Source: Candidatus Omnitrophota bacterium
GTDB lineage: Bacteria; Omnitrophota; Omnitrophia; Omnitrophales; Aquincolibacteriaceae
DNA: 42,429 nt
Direction: 5' to 3'
Assembly: GCA_903819565.1 (NCBI GenBank)
Contig: CAIJDY010000107.1
Coordinates: forward strand, 1-42,429
A model generated the notes under the pieces. That model made no database searches. It had not been told where the DNA came from and saw only the letters and a list, made by a program, of their open reading frames with translations. Shown here piece by piece: positions 8,683 to 16,442 of this stretch. Position numbers and translations under genes: made by a program. How positions within the stretch are numbered: the stretch's first letter is position 1; each line of letters opens with the position of its first letter.

Positions 8683-9438
8683 ATGTTGTCGGAAGGAAAA
8701 ATTCGGTCACTGACGGTGGTCATCCCCATTTTAAATGAGGAAGCCATCATTGAAAAAAGCCTGACCACTCTCTCCGATGTTCTCAAGACCATATGTCTTG
8801 ATTACGAGATCGTCGTCGTGGACGACGGCAGCACGGACAGGACCGCGGAGATTCTGAAGAAACTGGCTCTTTCGATCGGACGTTTGAAGATCCTCCGGAA
8901 TTCCCGCAATGAGGGTCTCGGTGGCGCGTTGTGTCACGGCTTCAAGCACGCCGCGAAAGATGTCGTCTTCTATATCGATGCGGACATGCCTTTCCAGTAT
9001 GCCGAGGTCTTACGCGCCGTGAAGATCCTGGAAGAAAGCCGCGCGGACGGTGTTGCCGGATTCAGGAATAACCGCGAGCAGGAGCCTTTTTTCAGGCGTC
9101 TTTCGTCGATGGCTTATAACGGGTGCGTGAGCTGCCTCTACGGCATCAAGATGCTGGATATCAATTGCGCTTTTAAATTGATGAAAAGAAATGCGCTGAA
9201 ACAGCTGGATCTGAAAGCAAAGGGGTCGTTCATCGATGCAGAATGGATGGTCCGCGCGGCCTACGGAGGATATAAAATACAGGAGCTGGGAGTGGAGTAT
9301 TATCCGCGCCCTCAAAGCAGTTCGCGTTTGTTCCGGCTCCGCCCAATCGCGACGGCCTTTTGGGAGATGATAAAGTTTTTCCCCGATATCCGGCGTTTGA
9401 AAGGTCCCGCGAGTCAGGACCCCCAAGCATGCCGTTAG
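8683..9438 (+). CDS. GT2 family glycosyltransferase (dolichyl-phosphate-mannose synthase-like)
   Basis: VVIPILNEEAIIEKSL, YEIVVVDDGSTDRT, GLGGALCHGF, FYIDADMPF; ATG at 8683. Confidence 0.9.
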   Translation: MLSEGKIRSLTVVIPILNEEAIIEKSLTTLSDVLKTICLDYEIVVVDDGSTDRTAEILKKLALSIGRLKILRNSRNEGLGGALCHGFKHAAKDVVFYIDADMPFQYAEVLRAVKILEESRADGVAGFRNNREQEPFFRRLSSMAYNGCVSCLYGIKMLDINCAFKLMKRNALKQLDLKAKGSFIDAEWMVRAAYGGYKIQELGVEYYPRPQSSSRLFRLRPIATAFWEMIKFFPDIRRLKGPASQDPQACR

Positions 9439-10112
9439 CCGGAATCTGTGAAAAATTCCGTCTTTTTCCATTTCGTTCCCGCATGGGGACGATTGCCCGC
9501 GGGTATCCGGCCAAAATACTGCCGCATCTTTTTGTGCGGTGGTTTTCCTGCCCTTTTGAGCTGATCGAACCCCACGTACCCAGGCAGGGGGTCATTTGCG
9601 ACCTGGGATGCGGTCACGGGCTGATGCTGCACCGTCTGGCGTCCCTTTTGCCTCCGGAAGCGACCCTTCTGGGGTTTGACATCGATAAGGAAAAGATTGG
9701 TTTTGCGCGGGCTTTTGATCATGATCATCGCATCTGGTTTGAAGCGAGAGACATTCTTGCTGCATTGGATCTGCGTGATGTGACCTGCTTGATTTTGAAT
9801 GATGTCTTGCACATGCTTTCCTATTCCCACCAGGAACTTTTGCTTCAGAGGTGCTTCGATTGCCTTGCGAAGGAAGGCGTTCTGATCCTTAAGGAAATAA
9901 ATGCCCAGGCGTCCTGGAAATATTGGTGGGCAGGCATCCAAGCGTATTTTGTAAAGGATGTCTTTCGTCTTACCCGGGGGGAAGGATTTCATCCCCGGTC
10001 CGTGGGTTGTCTGACCGGGCTGCTGGAAAAAATCGGTTTTAAAGTGGACGTTCTGCCGGCCCACCAAGGATATCCCTATCCTCACATGATCTTTCTTTGT
10101 CACAAAGGTTGA
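9429..10112 (+). CDS. class I SAM-dependent methyltransferase
   Basis: Motif I VICDLGCGHG, LLGFDID, VLILKEIN; ATG at 9429 overlaps GT2 end. Confidence 0.8.
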   Translation: MPLAGICEKFRLFPFRSRMGTIARGYPAKILPHLFVRWFSCPFELIEPHVPRQGVICDLGCGHGLMLHRLASLLPPEATLLGFDIDKEKIGFARAFDHDHRIWFEARDILAALDLRDVTCLILNDVLHMLSYSHQELLLQRCFDCLAKEGVLILKEINAQASWKYWWAGIQAYFVKDVFRLTRGEGFHPRSVGCLTGLLEKIGFKVDVLPAHQGYPYPHMIFLCHKG

Positions 10113-10121
10113 ACGCATGCA

Positions 10122-11465
10122 ATGAAAGAGACCGCTCTGCTGTTTAATCCGCCTGCTCCGCCCGGCTCGCAGTGTGTCATTCGCGACTTCTACTGCAGTT
10201 TTTCTTCGAAAGCCGATTATTATTGGCCTCCTCAGGACCTTTTGGCGCTGTCCGGGGTTCTGCGGGAAGATTATGATGTGCAGGTAATCGATGCCGTCGC
10301 TTCCGGACTCGGTCCGGCGGCCTGCCGGGAGATGATCCAGGCCAGCCGAGCCTCGGTGATGATCTTTGCCACCGGCAGCGTTTCGCTGACGGCAGATATG
10401 GCGTTTATGGGGAGCATTCCAAAGCGGGAGGGGAGCCGGTGGCTTGCCAGTGCCAGCCTGTTTCATTCCGCGAGGGAAGCCACGCTGCGCCGGTATCCGT
10501 TTTTGGATGATGTGATCTCGGATTTTACGGACCCAAGCATCCTTGACCGGCTGCGAGGCAAAGAAGCCCGGAAAGTCGTGGCCGCCGAATTCAGTCTCGG
10601 CAGGCCTCTGTATGAGCACTTCATCGGCCGCGGGAAGTCTTTACCGTTTTTCGGAGGGGCGTTTTTTTCCATCATGACAAGTTCGTTCGGCTGCGAATTC
10701 AGCTGCGGGTTTTGCACGGCGGGGACGTACCGGATCAAGTTCAGGGACATGAAGGAAGTGTTGGAGGATATCGGGTATTTGAAGAGCCGCGGCGTCGGAA
10801 AGATCTTTTTTGTCGATCCTCTTTTCACGGCGGATCCCCAAAGGGTCCTGAGGTTCTGTGATGCGGTCCGCGATCTGAAAATGGAGTGGATCTGCAATGC
10901 TCACGTGGATACGATCCAGGACGAGGCTCTGTTGTGCGCCATGGAAGCAGCGGGCTGTCGTGTTCTTTTGATTGGCGTGGAAAGCGGAGACGAAGATCTC
11001 CTGAAGCGATGGGGAAAGCGTACGGACGTCGGACGGATCAAAAAGGCGTTCGCGTTGTGCCGTAAACACCGGATCGCGACGCTCGGGTATTTTATCATCG
11101 GCCTGCCGGGGGAAGACCGGGAATCCTCCCGGAAAACGGTTCGTTTTGCCAAGGAGCTTCGGTGCGATTATGCTTCGTTTGGATATGCGACCCCCGATGA
11201 AGGAACGCGGTTGCGGAAAGAGGCGTTAGAGAAGGGATGGTGCAGTCCCTCCGAGATCTCAAGAGATTTCGACTCTTCGCAGGCGCCGGTTTTAGGGACC
11301 GAAACCTTGCCGCGCGAAGAGGCCGTTCAATTATTTCAAGAGGCTTACCGGAGTTTTTATTTTAGACCCGGATATATTCTAAGTGCATTGCTGAAAGTAA
11401 GGTCCCTGACGGGGCTAGGCGCCTTGTTCCGCACGGGGAGGGCGATATTAAAGAAAAATATCTGA
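10122..11465 (+). CDS. radical SAM protein with degenerate B12-binding-like N-terminus (HpnJ-like class)
   Basis: CEFSCGFC cluster motif, GVGKIFFVDPLFTADPQRV, LLIGVESGDEDLLKRWGKRT. Confidence 0.85.
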   Translation: MKETALLFNPPAPPGSQCVIRDFYCSFSSKADYYWPPQDLLALSGVLREDYDVQVIDAVASGLGPAACREMIQASRASVMIFATGSVSLTADMAFMGSIPKREGSRWLASASLFHSAREATLRRYPFLDDVISDFTDPSILDRLRGKEARKVVAAEFSLGRPLYEHFIGRGKSLPFFGGAFFSIMTSSFGCEFSCGFCTAGTYRIKFRDMKEVLEDIGYLKSRGVGKIFFVDPLFTADPQRVLRFCDAVRDLKMEWICNAHVDTIQDEALLCAMEAAGCRVLLIGVESGDEDLLKRWGKRTDVGRIKKAFALCRKHRIATLGYFIIGLPGEDRESSRKTVRFAKELRCDYASFGYATPDEGTRLRKEALEKGWCSPSEISRDFDSSQAPVLGTETLPREEAVQLFQEAYRSFYFRPGYILSALLKVRSLTGLGALFRTGRAILKKNI

Positions 11466-11467
11466 TT

Positions 11468-12289
11468 GTGAATGCCGATGATTTCGGTCTCGATCTCGAA
11501 ATTAATCGCGGGATCGATGAAGCTTGCCTCGGAGGGATGGTGAGAAGCGTTTCTCTTCTTGCTACGGGCAAGGCCTTTGAGGATGCGGTGGGGCGTCTTC
11601 GCAGGATGCCCAGGGTCGGGGTCGGGATCCATCTGTGTTTGGTGGCTGAAAGATCCGTGCTTCCCGCGCAGAAAATCCAGAGCCTTGTTGATGAACAAGG
11701 GCGGTTTCCTTCCGCCTATCGGAATTTTCTTGTAAGGTTGTGGACCCGCCGGATTCGTCCGGAGGACATTGCGATCGAACTCGACGCCCAGTTCAGAAAG
11801 TTTCTTGATCACGGAATCCACCCGACGCATGTTGATAGCCATCAATACATTCACCTCGTTCCCGCAGTTTCAACGACCGTGATCGAACTCTCTAAAAAAT
11901 ACGGGGTAAAATGGATCCGGTATCCTTCGCGGCCGGAGCGGTTTTTCCCGCGAAGTTTACGGGCCGCGGCGAAAATGATGGGGCTGGCGTTATTTTCGAG
12001 ATCGCAAACGCGGCGTATTCGAGGATTCGGCATCCGCGTTCCGGACAATTCTCTGGGATTTCTGGAATCAGGGCGTCTGGATGCCGGGAAGATGCGGGTG
12101 TTGTTGGATCGGATGATCTGCGGCGTCAATGACCTGACGGTCCATCCCGGCTACTGTCCCCAAGAAAGGGAATACGCGGCGTGGAATTATCATTGGGAAA
12201 CGGAGCTGGCTGTTTTGAAGGATGAGAGCACGATGCGTTTGGCGCGTGAAATGCGCATACGAATAGGGAATTACGCGGAGCAATCCTAA
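11468..12289 (+). CDS. ChbG/YdjC-family (HpnK-like) carbohydrate deacetylase
   Basis: VNADDFGLDLEINRGI, VGIHLCLVAERSVLP, HPTHVDSHQYIHLVP, DLTVHPGY; frame stays open upstream (KEKYLIVNADDFG), so the true start may precede 11468. Confidence 0.9.
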   Translation: MNADDFGLDLEINRGIDEACLGGMVRSVSLLATGKAFEDAVGRLRRMPRVGVGIHLCLVAERSVLPAQKIQSLVDEQGRFPSAYRNFLVRLWTRRIRPEDIAIELDAQFRKFLDHGIHPTHVDSHQYIHLVPAVSTTVIELSKKYGVKWIRYPSRPERFFPRSLRAAAKMMGLALFSRSQTRRIRGFGIRVPDNSLGFLESGRLDAGKMRVLLDRMICGVNDLTVHPGYCPQEREYAAWNYHWETELAVLKDESTMRLAREMRIRIGNYAEQS

Positions 12290-12374
12290 AGCGGTGGATT
12301 CCCGTTTTTTTCCCGCGGATTTTTCGAAACGTTAGTTCCGGAAAGCTGGGCGCGGCATCGGGCCCCGGCGTTTT

Positions 12375-13787
12375 TCAATCGCCTCGCGTGTGGGCGGAAA
12401 CGGCTTTCCAGCTTCTATAAAACTCGCGGACTTGATTTAAGGACCGTATCCTCTTGAGGTAGGACCAATACACGCGAGGGGAAGAATAAAAATCCTTCAG
12501 GATCGATCTGTGCGCCGCGACGATCTGTTCTTTTGACAGTCCGGCGGGTATAAAGACAGGATCGAAACAGGAAAACCGGTCCCACTCCGTGTCAAGAGTC
12601 CCGAACTCGTGGATCCGGTTCCAGACCTCTGAACCGGGATACGGGGTAAAGTAGGTTAGAGAGATGTCGTCCAGGCCAAGGCTTTTGATGAAATCCGCGG
12701 TTTGCTTTAAGGTTTCGGCCGTTTCCAAAGGATTGCCGAGCATAAAGAAGCCCTTGGTGGAAAAGCCCTGTTTTTGAGTGAGCCGTATTTTGATTCTGAT
12801 CTCGTCCAGCGTGATGCCCTTATCATAGAAATCGAGTATCGGCTGGGAACCGCTTTCAATGCCGTACAGGATCTGCCAGCAGCCGGATTGTTTAGCGATC
12901 TTCAGCCTGTTTTCCGTGATGATATCGATCCGGCTCAAGGCCGACCAGGCGATCCGGATGTTCTTTTTCCTGATCAGGCGAGACAGCTCCTCCAGGCGTT
13001 CTTCGGAAAGTAAAAAATTATCATCTTCGAAAAAGATCCCCCGGATGCCGTACTCTTTTTGAAGCAGCAACATCATCTCTGCCACGTAAGCGGCGCTGTG
13101 CAGCCTCACCTGATTGCCAAAGATCGCGCGATCGCAGAAAACGCACCGGCCGGGGCACCCCCGGGAAGTGACGAGAGAAACACAGGGCATCTCTTTGATG
13201 CTTTGAGTGGGGACCCTGTAATAGCGATCCAGCCGCGGCAATAGATCAAAGGCCGGAAAAGGAAGTTCGTCCAGGTCCCGGATCCTGTCCCGGGAAGGGG
13301 TCCGTAGAAGCTTTCCGTCCGCTTTGAAGACGATCCCTTGAACCGAGGTTAAGGAGGCTCCCTCCCGCAGTGCCCGCAATAATGCTTCGAGGGTCCTTTC
13401 TCCTTCACCGAGAACTCCGATATCAAAAGCGGCATTTTCAAGCAGCGTTTTTTCAGGGAGGGCGGTGAAGTGAGGCCCCCCGATAATGATCGTTATTCCG
13501 GGTAGTTTCTCTTTGAGCTTCTTTGCAAGAGCTGAGGATGTTTTTACGGAGACTGTGGTGAGCGTGATGCCTAAAAGAGAAGGATTTTTTTCACAAATTG
13601 CCACTGCGGTTTCTTCCAGTCCGTACCCCAGCGCGGCCGCGTCCAGGAGGCTTGTCTCAAAGCCCATTTTCCGTGCAGTGGCTGCCAAAGAAGCCAGGCC
13701 CAGGGGAGGTTCCACGGCGCCGGCCTGAGATAAAATGCCGTAACGCTGATTTGCGCTCACGGGGGGATTCACAAACAGGGTTTTCAC
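12375..13787 (-). CDS. B12-binding domain radical SAM protein
   Basis: MKTLFVNPPVSANQRYGILSQAGAVEPPLGLASLAA, IIIGGPHFTALPE, LGEGE, TSRGCPGRCVFCDR, FFEDDNFLL. Confidence 0.92.
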   Translation of the reverse strand: MKTLFVNPPVSANQRYGILSQAGAVEPPLGLASLAATARKMGFETSLLDAAALGYGLEETAVAICEKNPSLLGITLTTVSVKTSSALAKKLKEKLPGITIIIGGPHFTALPEKTLLENAAFDIGVLGEGERTLEALLRALREGASLTSVQGIVFKADGKLLRTPSRDRIRDLDELPFPAFDLLPRLDRYYRVPTQSIKEMPCVSLVTSRGCPGRCVFCDRAIFGNQVRLHSAAYVAEMMLLLQKEYGIRGIFFEDDNFLLSEERLEELSRLIRKKNIRIAWSALSRIDIITENRLKIAKQSGCWQILYGIESGSQPILDFYDKGITLDEIRIKIRLTQKQGFSTKGFFMLGNPLETAETLKQTADFIKSLGLDDISLTYFTPYPGSEVWNRIHEFGTLDTEWDRFSCFDPVFIPAGLSKEQIVAAHRSILKDFYSSPRVYWSYLKRIRSLNQVREFYRSWKAVSAHTRGD

Positions 13788-14092
13788 GGTCCTCTCCTCG
13801 ACGCCGATAATAAGTGCGGTTTTTCGGCCGCAGCATGTCCGGTCGTCTCAGGTCAAAATGCTAACGGCGCGCGGCCTCCGGCGACTTTTTGCCGATCATT
13901 GTACTATATCCGTGAGAGGGATCGATGCAACCGTAATCTTTCGGCAGGGGGGGGGGATCGCTTCCGTTCTTTTCACGGCGCTTTCTTTCGGCTATCATGT
14001 GCGGGCATGGAGCCCGTTTCCAGAGCCATCCATGCTGGCGGTTCTCGAATGGGTGCGCGGGTCCTTGATATGGCCGCGTGATCCCTTCGTGA

Positions 14093-14185
14093 GGGGGCCT
14101 GAATGGGTGGGCTGTTTTAAAGGATGGGGCTTTGATGTTCTTTGCGCGTGAAACACACATGAGAATAGGGAATTATGCAGACTGA
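14093..14185 (+). pseudogene. relic of the C-terminus of a YdjC-family deacetylase
   Basis: Frame gives AVLKDGALMFFARETHMRIGNYAD*, matching the C-terminus at 12208-12289 (AVLKDESTMRLAREMRIRIGNYAEQS*) without gaps, 15 of 24 residues identical; in-frame stop just upstream. Confidence 0.7.
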
Positions 14186-16442
14186 TCAAAAAGATTTGAA
14201 TCCTTTGCCCATGGTTTTGGTCAATTTGACGGTGGCCATGGCTTTAGTGAATTATTTTTGGCTGAGGCTAAATCAGTGTCCTCCGGTGGATGACGAGGCC
14301 TATCATCTCTTGTCGGCTCTGAAATATTTCTGGCTTTTCGGCAATCCGTCCTCCGGGATGTTCGGCTCCCTATTATTCGTCGATGATCTTTACCCGCCGT
14401 TATTTCCTTTTTTGGCTGCATGGGGGGCACACATTTTCGGCGCCGTGGGAACGGTTTCGTTTTGTATGACCAACGCGATTTTTCTGGTGGTCACGTTCTT
14501 TTCCTTATACGGCATCGGCCTCAAAATGGGGGATCGGAGATTAGGGGTTTTGGCTTCGTGTTTCCTTGCTTTGTACCCGATGTTCTTTCATTTGAGCCGG
14601 ATGTTCATGCTGGAGATCGCGTTGGTCGGGATGGTGACGCTGACGGTGATGCTTCTTCTTTACTCCGAGGGATTCACCCGGACGGTGTGGAGCGTTCTGG
14701 CGGGAATTTCGCTGGGTCTCGGCATGTTGACAAAGCAGACGTGCGTCGTCTTCGTCGTGGGACCGGCCCTCTGGGGGCTCCTGGGATCCTGGAACGCGCT
14801 CGATGCTAAGCAAAAAAAAAGAAAGGTCGTTAATTTTTGTCTGTTCGTCGCGTTGGGAATCGCGATCGCGTTGCCATGGTATTTTGCGGATGGAGCGACA
14901 AAATGCCTTAATATGCGAGGCGCATTTTTGGTCAAAGACAAGGTGGATTTCAACTTCTTCGCTTCTCATCTCGGGGCACTTGTTTTTTATCTCAGGGTAT
15001 TGGTGCTTGACCAAATGGGATGGATCTTTTTTGGAGGTTTTGTTCTGGCGATTTTTACAAAATTTAGAAAGCTTTTTGAATCGTCCCTTCTTTTCGTTTG
15101 GTTTGCCGTCCCGTATGCGGTTTTTTTACTGTTTCCCAACAAATACTACTACTACACACTTGCCTCCCTTCCTGCGGTGGCCTTGATGTCGGCGGGCGGA
15201 TTGTTGTCCGTCAAAAAGGCGGTTGTCCGCTGGGTTATTATTTCCGGCTTGCTCCTTTTGGGAGTTGGGCAATTTATCCAGCTCTCATTTTTGTCCCCTC
15301 AAATCCCCTCGAAAATCCTGTCCTTTGCGCGTTTCTCTCCTCAGACGGGGAATCATCAAATTCAAACACTTTTCAGGCGCATCACGGAGGAATCCAATGT
15401 CGAGAAGCCCGTTATCGGGGTCCCGAGCGTAAACCCGAATACCTTTTCGGGAGCGAAGGACACAAAAATCGGGAGAAATTATGTCTGTGTCAATTGGGAC
15501 ACTTTAAAGTACCAGGCGGCACTTGATTTGAAACCGTGGACGATAAAAACGATCAACGGTTTGAATGAGGACGATTTCACGACGCCGCCCCATTTTATCG
15601 TTTGTCACGAGCGTATTGAAAAATTAGGTTTTCCCGCTTCCTTCAGCGCTTCTTACCGGCCGACGGATATTTTTGTGATGCCGGATACGACCCGGGTCTA
15701 TTTGTACAAACTTGAGGAGGGCCGCGGATTTGGCGGGAGGAAAGCCGTTGTTCATCAGGATGAAAACAGCACTGTCTTGGACAACGGCCTTTTACAACTG
15801 GGTCTGGAGGATAACAGGTGGCGATTGTATTGGAAAGGGCAGTCCATCGTTAAAAGACTGTCGGTGCTTGCTGCTTTCAAGCCTTTCAGGATTTGGAACA
15901 ACTCGCGGGAATGTTTCTGGAGGATCTTGTCGCGAGATAAGAACCGTCTTGTGGCGAGGGCATACTTTTGTTTTCTGATTCCTGCCCAGGAGTGGGAATT
16001 TGTGCTGGATGGTAATCGTGTCTACTGGACCGTCAAAGTATTTGAGCCTTTCATTATAAAGTCCGAATGGGAAGAGGTTCGTGTCTTGTTGGTGGATGAG
16101 TATCGCCACTGGATCACGGCGCTTGGGTCCGGAGATTTTCCGCGGGGATCTGTCGAGGGCTTCATGGAAAACTGGCTGCCCTCCTCGAGCGGTGGCGGGG
16201 TTGATTCCGGTTACGTAGGGGTCGAGCAAGTCGAGGATCATTTGCCCGCCGTGACCTTTTACTCACTCCGATCGCGGAACGGACTTAAAGGAGAGGTGGG
16301 AAGTGTGGAAGGTTACATGCACGGCAAGCTTCTGAAGTATGTTTTTCGGTGGCCCTGGCGCTATGACTATTTTCGGGGTTGCCTGCTGGTCGGGGATAAG
16401 AGCTTCAATTCCCGTTGGCGGCCCGGTCTTGAAAAAGAGTAG
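14175..16442 (+). CDS. ArnT/PMT-like (GT39/GT83 type) membrane glycosyltransferase with extra C-terminal domain
   Basis: CPPVDDEAYHLLSALKYFWLFG, YPPLFPFLAAWGAHIFG, multiple TM helices, then ~245-aa soluble C-terminal region. Confidence 0.85.
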   Translation: MQTDQKDLNPLPMVLVNLTVAMALVNYFWLRLNQCPPVDDEAYHLLSALKYFWLFGNPSSGMFGSLLFVDDLYPPLFPFLAAWGAHIFGAVGTVSFCMTNAIFLVVTFFSLYGIGLKMGDRRLGVLASCFLALYPMFFHLSRMFMLEIALVGMVTLTVMLLLYSEGFTRTVWSVLAGISLGLGMLTKQTCVVFVVGPALWGLLGSWNALDAKQKKRKVVNFCLFVALGIAIALPWYFADGATKCLNMRGAFLVKDKVDFNFFASHLGALVFYLRVLVLDQMGWIFFGGFVLAIFTKFRKLFESSLLFVWFAVPYAVFLLFPNKYYYYTLASLPAVALMSAGGLLSVKKAVVRWVIISGLLLLGVGQFIQLSFLSPQIPSKILSFARFSPQTGNHQIQTLFRRITEESNVEKPVIGVPSVNPNTFSGAKDTKIGRNYVCVNWDTLKYQAALDLKPWTIKTINGLNEDDFTTPPHFIVCHERIEKLGFPASFSASYRPTDIFVMPDTTRVYLYKLEEGRGFGGRKAVVHQDENSTVLDNGLLQLGLEDNRWRLYWKGQSIVKRLSVLAAFKPFRIWNNSRECFWRILSRDKNRLVARAYFCFLIPAQEWEFVLDGNRVYWTVKVFEPFIIKSEWEEVRVLLVDEYRHWITALGSGDFPRGSVEGFMENWLPSSSGGGVDSGYVGVEQVEDHLPAVTFYSLRSRNGLKGEVGSVEGYMHGKLLKYVFRWPWRYDYFRGCLLVGDKSFNSRWRPGLEKE

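Follow-up and report, generated by a model that had tools for sequence, protein, structure and literature searches.

What does a radical S-adenosylmethionine (SAM) enzyme do when it is encoded between a sugar transferase and a sugar deacetylase, and does such a gene set belong to hopanoid synthesis? This question is raised by positions 8683 to 16442 of contig CAIJDY010000107.1 from a Candidatus Omnitrophota bacterium (assembly GCA_903819565.1), whose analysed stretch of 42,429 nucleotides (nt) is called the window here. A first-pass annotation of this DNA had compared the genes with HpnI, HpnK and HpnJ, which make the cyclitol ether of bacteriohopanetetrol, and had added that they may instead modify a different lipid carrier or a cell-surface glycan. 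We now take a different lipid carrier as likely; hopanoid genes were not found, and the family 2 glycosyltransferase (GT2) resembles ArnC. Building on the observed gene content and order, conservation, fold, family assignments, LpxC and absence of hopanoid genes, we lean modestly towards an operon that produces a modified aminosugar, carried on polyprenyl phosphate, and exports it to a surface acceptor. Genes in the window were called from open reading frames (ORFs) and Pfam domains; the genome it comes from (G000) amounts to 2.1 Mb and is 84% complete. The six genes described at first were confirmed in presence, place and order:

8683-9438, + strand: GT2 glycosyltransferase, ArnC/dolichyl-phosphate-sugar-synthase-like (Pfam PF00535; 251 amino acids)
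9429-10112, + strand: MT, class I SAM methyltransferase (Pfam PF13847 and others; ATG start at 9429)
10122-11465, + strand: rSAM1, radical SAM enzyme (Pfam PF04055)
11447-12289, + strand: YdjC/ChbG-HpnK-family carbohydrate deacetylase (Pfam PF04794, 1.1e-60)
12375-13787, - strand: rSAM2, B12-binding radical SAM protein (Pfam B12-binding and Radical_SAM)
14175-16442, + strand: GT-C glycosyltransferase, PMT_2/ArnT-like (Pfam PMT_2 2e-12, PMT 2.4e-10)

Is this arrangement maintained in other genomes? We compared it with two congeners, G001 and the 95% complete G002, and with G615 and G473, two members of a single genus from a different family within the phylum. Among 58 sampled relatives, a close rSAM1 was observed only in G001 (64%), where GT2, MT, rSAM1, YdjC and ArnT follow each other in the order of the window, with the start of ArnT overlapping the end of YdjC and with the neighbours LptG, ComFC and EF-P retained on the contig. 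In G615 and G473, a large ArnT-like gene comes after GT2-MT-rSAM1-YdjC, with one or two more radical SAM genes in between. Thus, the arrangement is not due to chance, given the same order in G001 and the same first four genes with a downstream GT-C gene in G615 and G473. A scan of named genomes for rSAM1 further returned nine relatives with 36-41% identity, eight of them titled Candidatus Aminicenantes, and in 7 of these 9 loci YdjC and GT2 lay within 6 kb of the rSAM1 relative. MT, AsnB-like amidotransferase and PMT_2-type genes were found near several of the nine. MT adjoins rSAM1 in G001, G615 and G473, and also in Aminicenantes clusters; GT-C homologs lie less than 6 kb from rSAM1 in G615, G473 and several Aminicenantes loci. 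The Aminicenantes version is a looser cluster of the same gene types.

Within the window, ORF coordinates and Pfam domains agree with the earlier description of GT2, MT, rSAM1 and YdjC as head-to-tail genes that overlap or abut. GT2 runs 10 nt into MT, a 9-nt gap separates MT from rSAM1, and the start region of MT is similar in G001. The probable start codon of YdjC is an AUU at 11447, with GGGGAGGG upstream, which would give a 19-nt overlap with the end of rSAM1. An ATT at the matching position and a purine-rich upstream stretch are also present in G001 and G615, and use of the conventional start GTG at 11468 would remove beta-strand 1 (KYLIV). An Rfam search of the window returned zero matches, and a scan for promoters and terminators gave matches that exceeded those in shuffled sequences, yet were too unspecific to use.

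What kind of radical enzyme is rSAM1? The protein carries a canonical CxxxCxxC motif (CEFSCGFC) and the signature IRDFYCSFSSKADYYWPPQDL. A profile search of the PDB with rSAM1 gave AprD4 as the best match (6fd2, E=1.1e-44), and Foldseek with the AlphaFold model (predicted local distance difference test score, pLDDT, 78.9) returned the same structure at the top (TM 0.79, E=5.9e-24). Paromamine is the substrate of AprD4, a radical SAM diol dehydratase (PMC5461906), and the matched structure was solved with this aminosugar. The N-terminal third of the rSAM1 model forms a degenerate Rossmann-like domain, in a protein where Pfam detected no B12-binding domain. rSAM1 scored 111.3 bits against the AprD4 model, not reaching the cut-off of 500, and 144.7 bits against the HpnJ model (cut-off 577.6). 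Moreover, in trees whose reference HpnJ proteins all score above the HpnJ cut-off, rSAM1 and its relatives were split from true HpnJ by strongly supported branches (99/95 and 100/99). Members of this separate radical SAM family occur in 61 of the 384 genomes sampled from the phylum (E<=1e-70).

Could the product nevertheless be a hopanoid bearing an aminocyclitol ether of the HpnI/K/J type, while the genes for the hopanoid itself lie in other parts of the genome or on missing contigs? The shared enzyme classes and reaction logic (PMC12583986) speak for this, and to that extent the first comparison with the Hpn set stood; the implied kinship was not supported. BLASTP of GT2 against HpnI gave no meaningful similarity (E=0.21), HpnI was not among the matches listed for GT2 in NCBIfam (25 models), and rSAM1 falls outside HpnJ. 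The YdjC ORF does contain the motif order that had been called HpnK-like, NADDFG...GIHLCLVAERSVLP...LVDEQGRF, and its active-site residues of metal-ligand type, D13, D14, H64 and H138, are intact and invariant. HpnK is also its best-scoring model, but the score of 197.6 bits misses the cut-off of 232.6, and a tree that included annotated HpnK and ChbG placed the protein neither with nor apart from HpnK. The earlier remark that the window holds no squalene or hopene enzyme could be extended to whole genomes: neither squalene-hopene cyclase (PF13243) nor squalene synthase (PF00494) was found in the 84% complete G000, in G001 or in G002, and matches to HpnH and HpnI in the window's genome were far under the cut-offs. 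The squalene synthase family PF00494 is present in G473 and G615, both of which carry the cluster. Aminicenantes genomes gave weak, partial matches to the squalene-hopene cyclase model, at 21-29 bits, and we did not count these as cyclases. Genome searches and trees thus led us to reject the hopanoid reading, which is largely refuted and in our view very improbable, and the combination of radical SAM, YdjC and GT2 should not serve as a hopanoid marker.

If not a hopanoid, which lipid would receive the sugar? The closest solved relatives of GT2 in the PDB are ArnC and dolichol-phosphate mannose synthase, and the protein is 64% identical to its counterpart in G001. One alternative to a polyprenyl-phosphate carrier is a tailored membrane glycolipid, in which GT2 would act directly on diacylglycerol or another non-phosphate lipid while GT-C serves a separate purpose. 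GT2 alone does not fix the acceptor, and HpnJ provides a precedent for radical SAM enzymes that tailor glycolipids, as does calditol synthase. However, ArnC and dolichyl-phosphate synthases are the solved structures nearest to GT2, and the ArnT-like GT-C is coupled to YdjC in G001; both points argue against such a glycolipid, which we hold to be quite improbable.

Does the deacetylase indicate what rSAM1 acts on? A deacetylase and a GT2 were found within 6 kb in 19 of 31 rSAM1-family loci, compared to 0 of 12 other radical SAM loci (Fisher p=0.0003), a figure that is indicative only, since these loci supplied the probes and a different phylum supplied the controls. YdjC accounted for 10 of these 19 loci and a polysaccharide deacetylase of an unrelated family for the other 9, the latter confirmed directly by Pfam in four (L122, L126, L127 and L137) and assigned by homology in the remainder. 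Since either deacetylase can stand beside the same radical SAM family, the alternative pairing points to a free-amine sugar, and we infer that a deacetylated aminosugar is the substrate of rSAM1. No published precedent for YdjC paired with a radical SAM enzyme was found in a literature search of limited coverage.

Two other gene groups were observed around these deacetylases. A sibling cluster (L122, L123, L126, L128, L129, L131 and L133) combines an rSAM1-family gene, a flavin adenine dinucleotide (FAD) amine-oxidase-like gene, a polysaccharide deacetylase and a GT2, often with another radical SAM gene; the L122 copy lies beside a sigma-54 gene. G002, a congener that lacks rSAM1, has an MT-YdjC-GT2 cluster of another kind (C17, L029), so that MT and YdjC also associate without a radical SAM gene.

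Where would the finished sugar go? The GT-C protein has 755 amino acids, with a soluble domain at its C-terminus. LpxC, and with it lipid A synthesis, was found in 9 of 9 genomes tested, G000 included. In addition, the YdjC family includes NaxD, which deacetylates undecaprenyl-phosphate-linked N-acetylgalactosamine before galactosamine joins lipid A (PMC11279074; PMC12330716). Lipid A specifically is a possible acceptor, to which we give slightly less than an even chance. A competing explanation is that a polyprenyl-linked or soluble sugar is made for O-antigen, exopolysaccharide or a protein glycan, GT-C being a polysaccharide or protein glycosyltransferase. It draws on the AsnB-like amidotransferase in Aminicenantes clusters, one of which has a heptosyltransferase-type GT9 nearby, on other rSAM1 relatives that lie among polysaccharide genes, and on GT-C matching the generic PMT_2. 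The unit is nonetheless compact in the window, G001, G615 and G473, and its annotated surroundings showed no recognisable flippase, polymerase or ligase; we consider this explanation unlikely, although it is the strongest competitor. G001 also has several ArnT homologs (G001:C99:2790-6069; G001:C148; L039, L041 and L042), and one ArnT-homolog frame of this genome matches only the C-terminal 300 amino acids of the window's ArnT.

Is rSAM2 part of the same unit? rSAM2, on the opposite strand, and the ArnT-like gene after it both lie where the first-pass annotation had placed them. However, rSAM2 as a core member was rejected, since it is missing between YdjC and ArnT in G001, stands on the opposite strand, and is only 25% identical to the radical SAM protein of G615. 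Homologs in G000, G001 and G018 share only 31-34% identity and lie at other places. The most similar rSAM2 homologs recovered are neighbours of rSAM1 relatives, in G454 and G473, and an accessory tailoring role is therefore possible. In G454 (L124 2767-4227), the rSAM2 homolog overlaps the rSAM1 homolog by 10 nt, head-to-tail.

How might the core enzymes work together? For the pathway from polyprenyl carrier to surface acceptor, we infer the carrier, the sugar, the radical chemistry, the methylation site, the order of steps and the acceptor as follows. GT2 would transfer an N-acetylhexosamine from a nucleotide sugar to polyprenyl phosphate, and YdjC would remove the acetyl group from the polyprenyl-linked sugar, leaving a free amine. 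rSAM1 would then take a hydrogen from the aminosugar by means of a 5'-deoxyadenosyl radical, leading either to loss of a hydroxyl, as with AprD4, or to a skeletal rearrangement, as with HpnJ. MT would add a methyl group, and on the periplasmic side the ArnT-like GT-C would hand the finished sugar to an acceptor at the surface, be it lipid A or another one. The product is potentially new owing to the radical enzyme. A more specific version, which we hold to be rather doubtful, would be a mode of Gram-negative outer-surface decoration not described before: the radical SAM enzyme would make a deoxy, branched or carbocyclic aminosugar while the sugar is linked to polyprenyl phosphate, the ArnT-like enzyme would place it on lipid A or some other acceptor of the surface, and in many uncultured bacteria related radical SAM enzymes would do likewise beside another deacetylase. 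If the pathway as outlined above is right, a new surface aminosugar is to be expected, and the separate radical SAM family acquires a function that can be tested.

Several observations weigh against this pathway, besides the bias in the count of deacetylase loci. AprD4 forms a long branch in the trees, so that its exact attachment is unsure; rSAM1 and AprD4 are only ~24% identical, and none of the operon's genes was recognised as an AprD3-like reductase. The GT2 of the window is devoid of a C-terminal extension found in Aminicenantes homologs. Finally, GT-C matched zero ArnT models of NCBIfam and no sequence in the PDB, and its predicted structure was too poor to use (pLDDT 31).

How, then, does the locus compare with known systems? 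With HpnI-HpnK-HpnJ it shares the clustering of a glycosyltransferase, a YdjC-family deacetylase and a radical SAM enzyme, whereas here GT2 is not HpnI, rSAM1 is not HpnJ, YdjC misses the HpnK cut-off, and no hopanoid genes were found. AprD4/AprD3 of apramycin synthesis is alike in the fold and best profile match of rSAM1 and in that AprD4 acts on a free-amine aminosugar; in contrast, identity is low, the substrate of AprD4 is a soluble pseudodisaccharide, and a recognisable AprD3-like reductase is missing from the cluster. A closer analogy, which the first-pass annotation did not draw, lies in lipid A modification by way of polyprenyl-phosphate-hexosamine: Francisella has the ArnC-like GT2 FlmF2 and ArnT-type proteins (PMC8149597), and Bordetella requires lgmA-D for glucosamine on lipid A (PMC11895810). 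Francisella FlmF2, NaxD and ArnT-type proteins, Acinetobacter NaxD and Bordetella LgmA-D resemble the present system in an ArnC-like GT2, a YdjC-family deacetylase, a GT-C that may be of the ArnT type and a host that makes lipid A, a likeness at the level of protein families. Unlike these undecaprenyl-phosphate-hexosamine routes, the operon described here also encodes a methyltransferase and a radical SAM enzyme, and it belongs to an uncultured lineage. The cluster is probably closer to the routes that add sugars to lipid A than to hopanoid synthesis, and it would unite, in one conserved operon, a deacetylate-then-transfer aminosugar route to the outer membrane with radical SAM remodelling of free-amine sugars.

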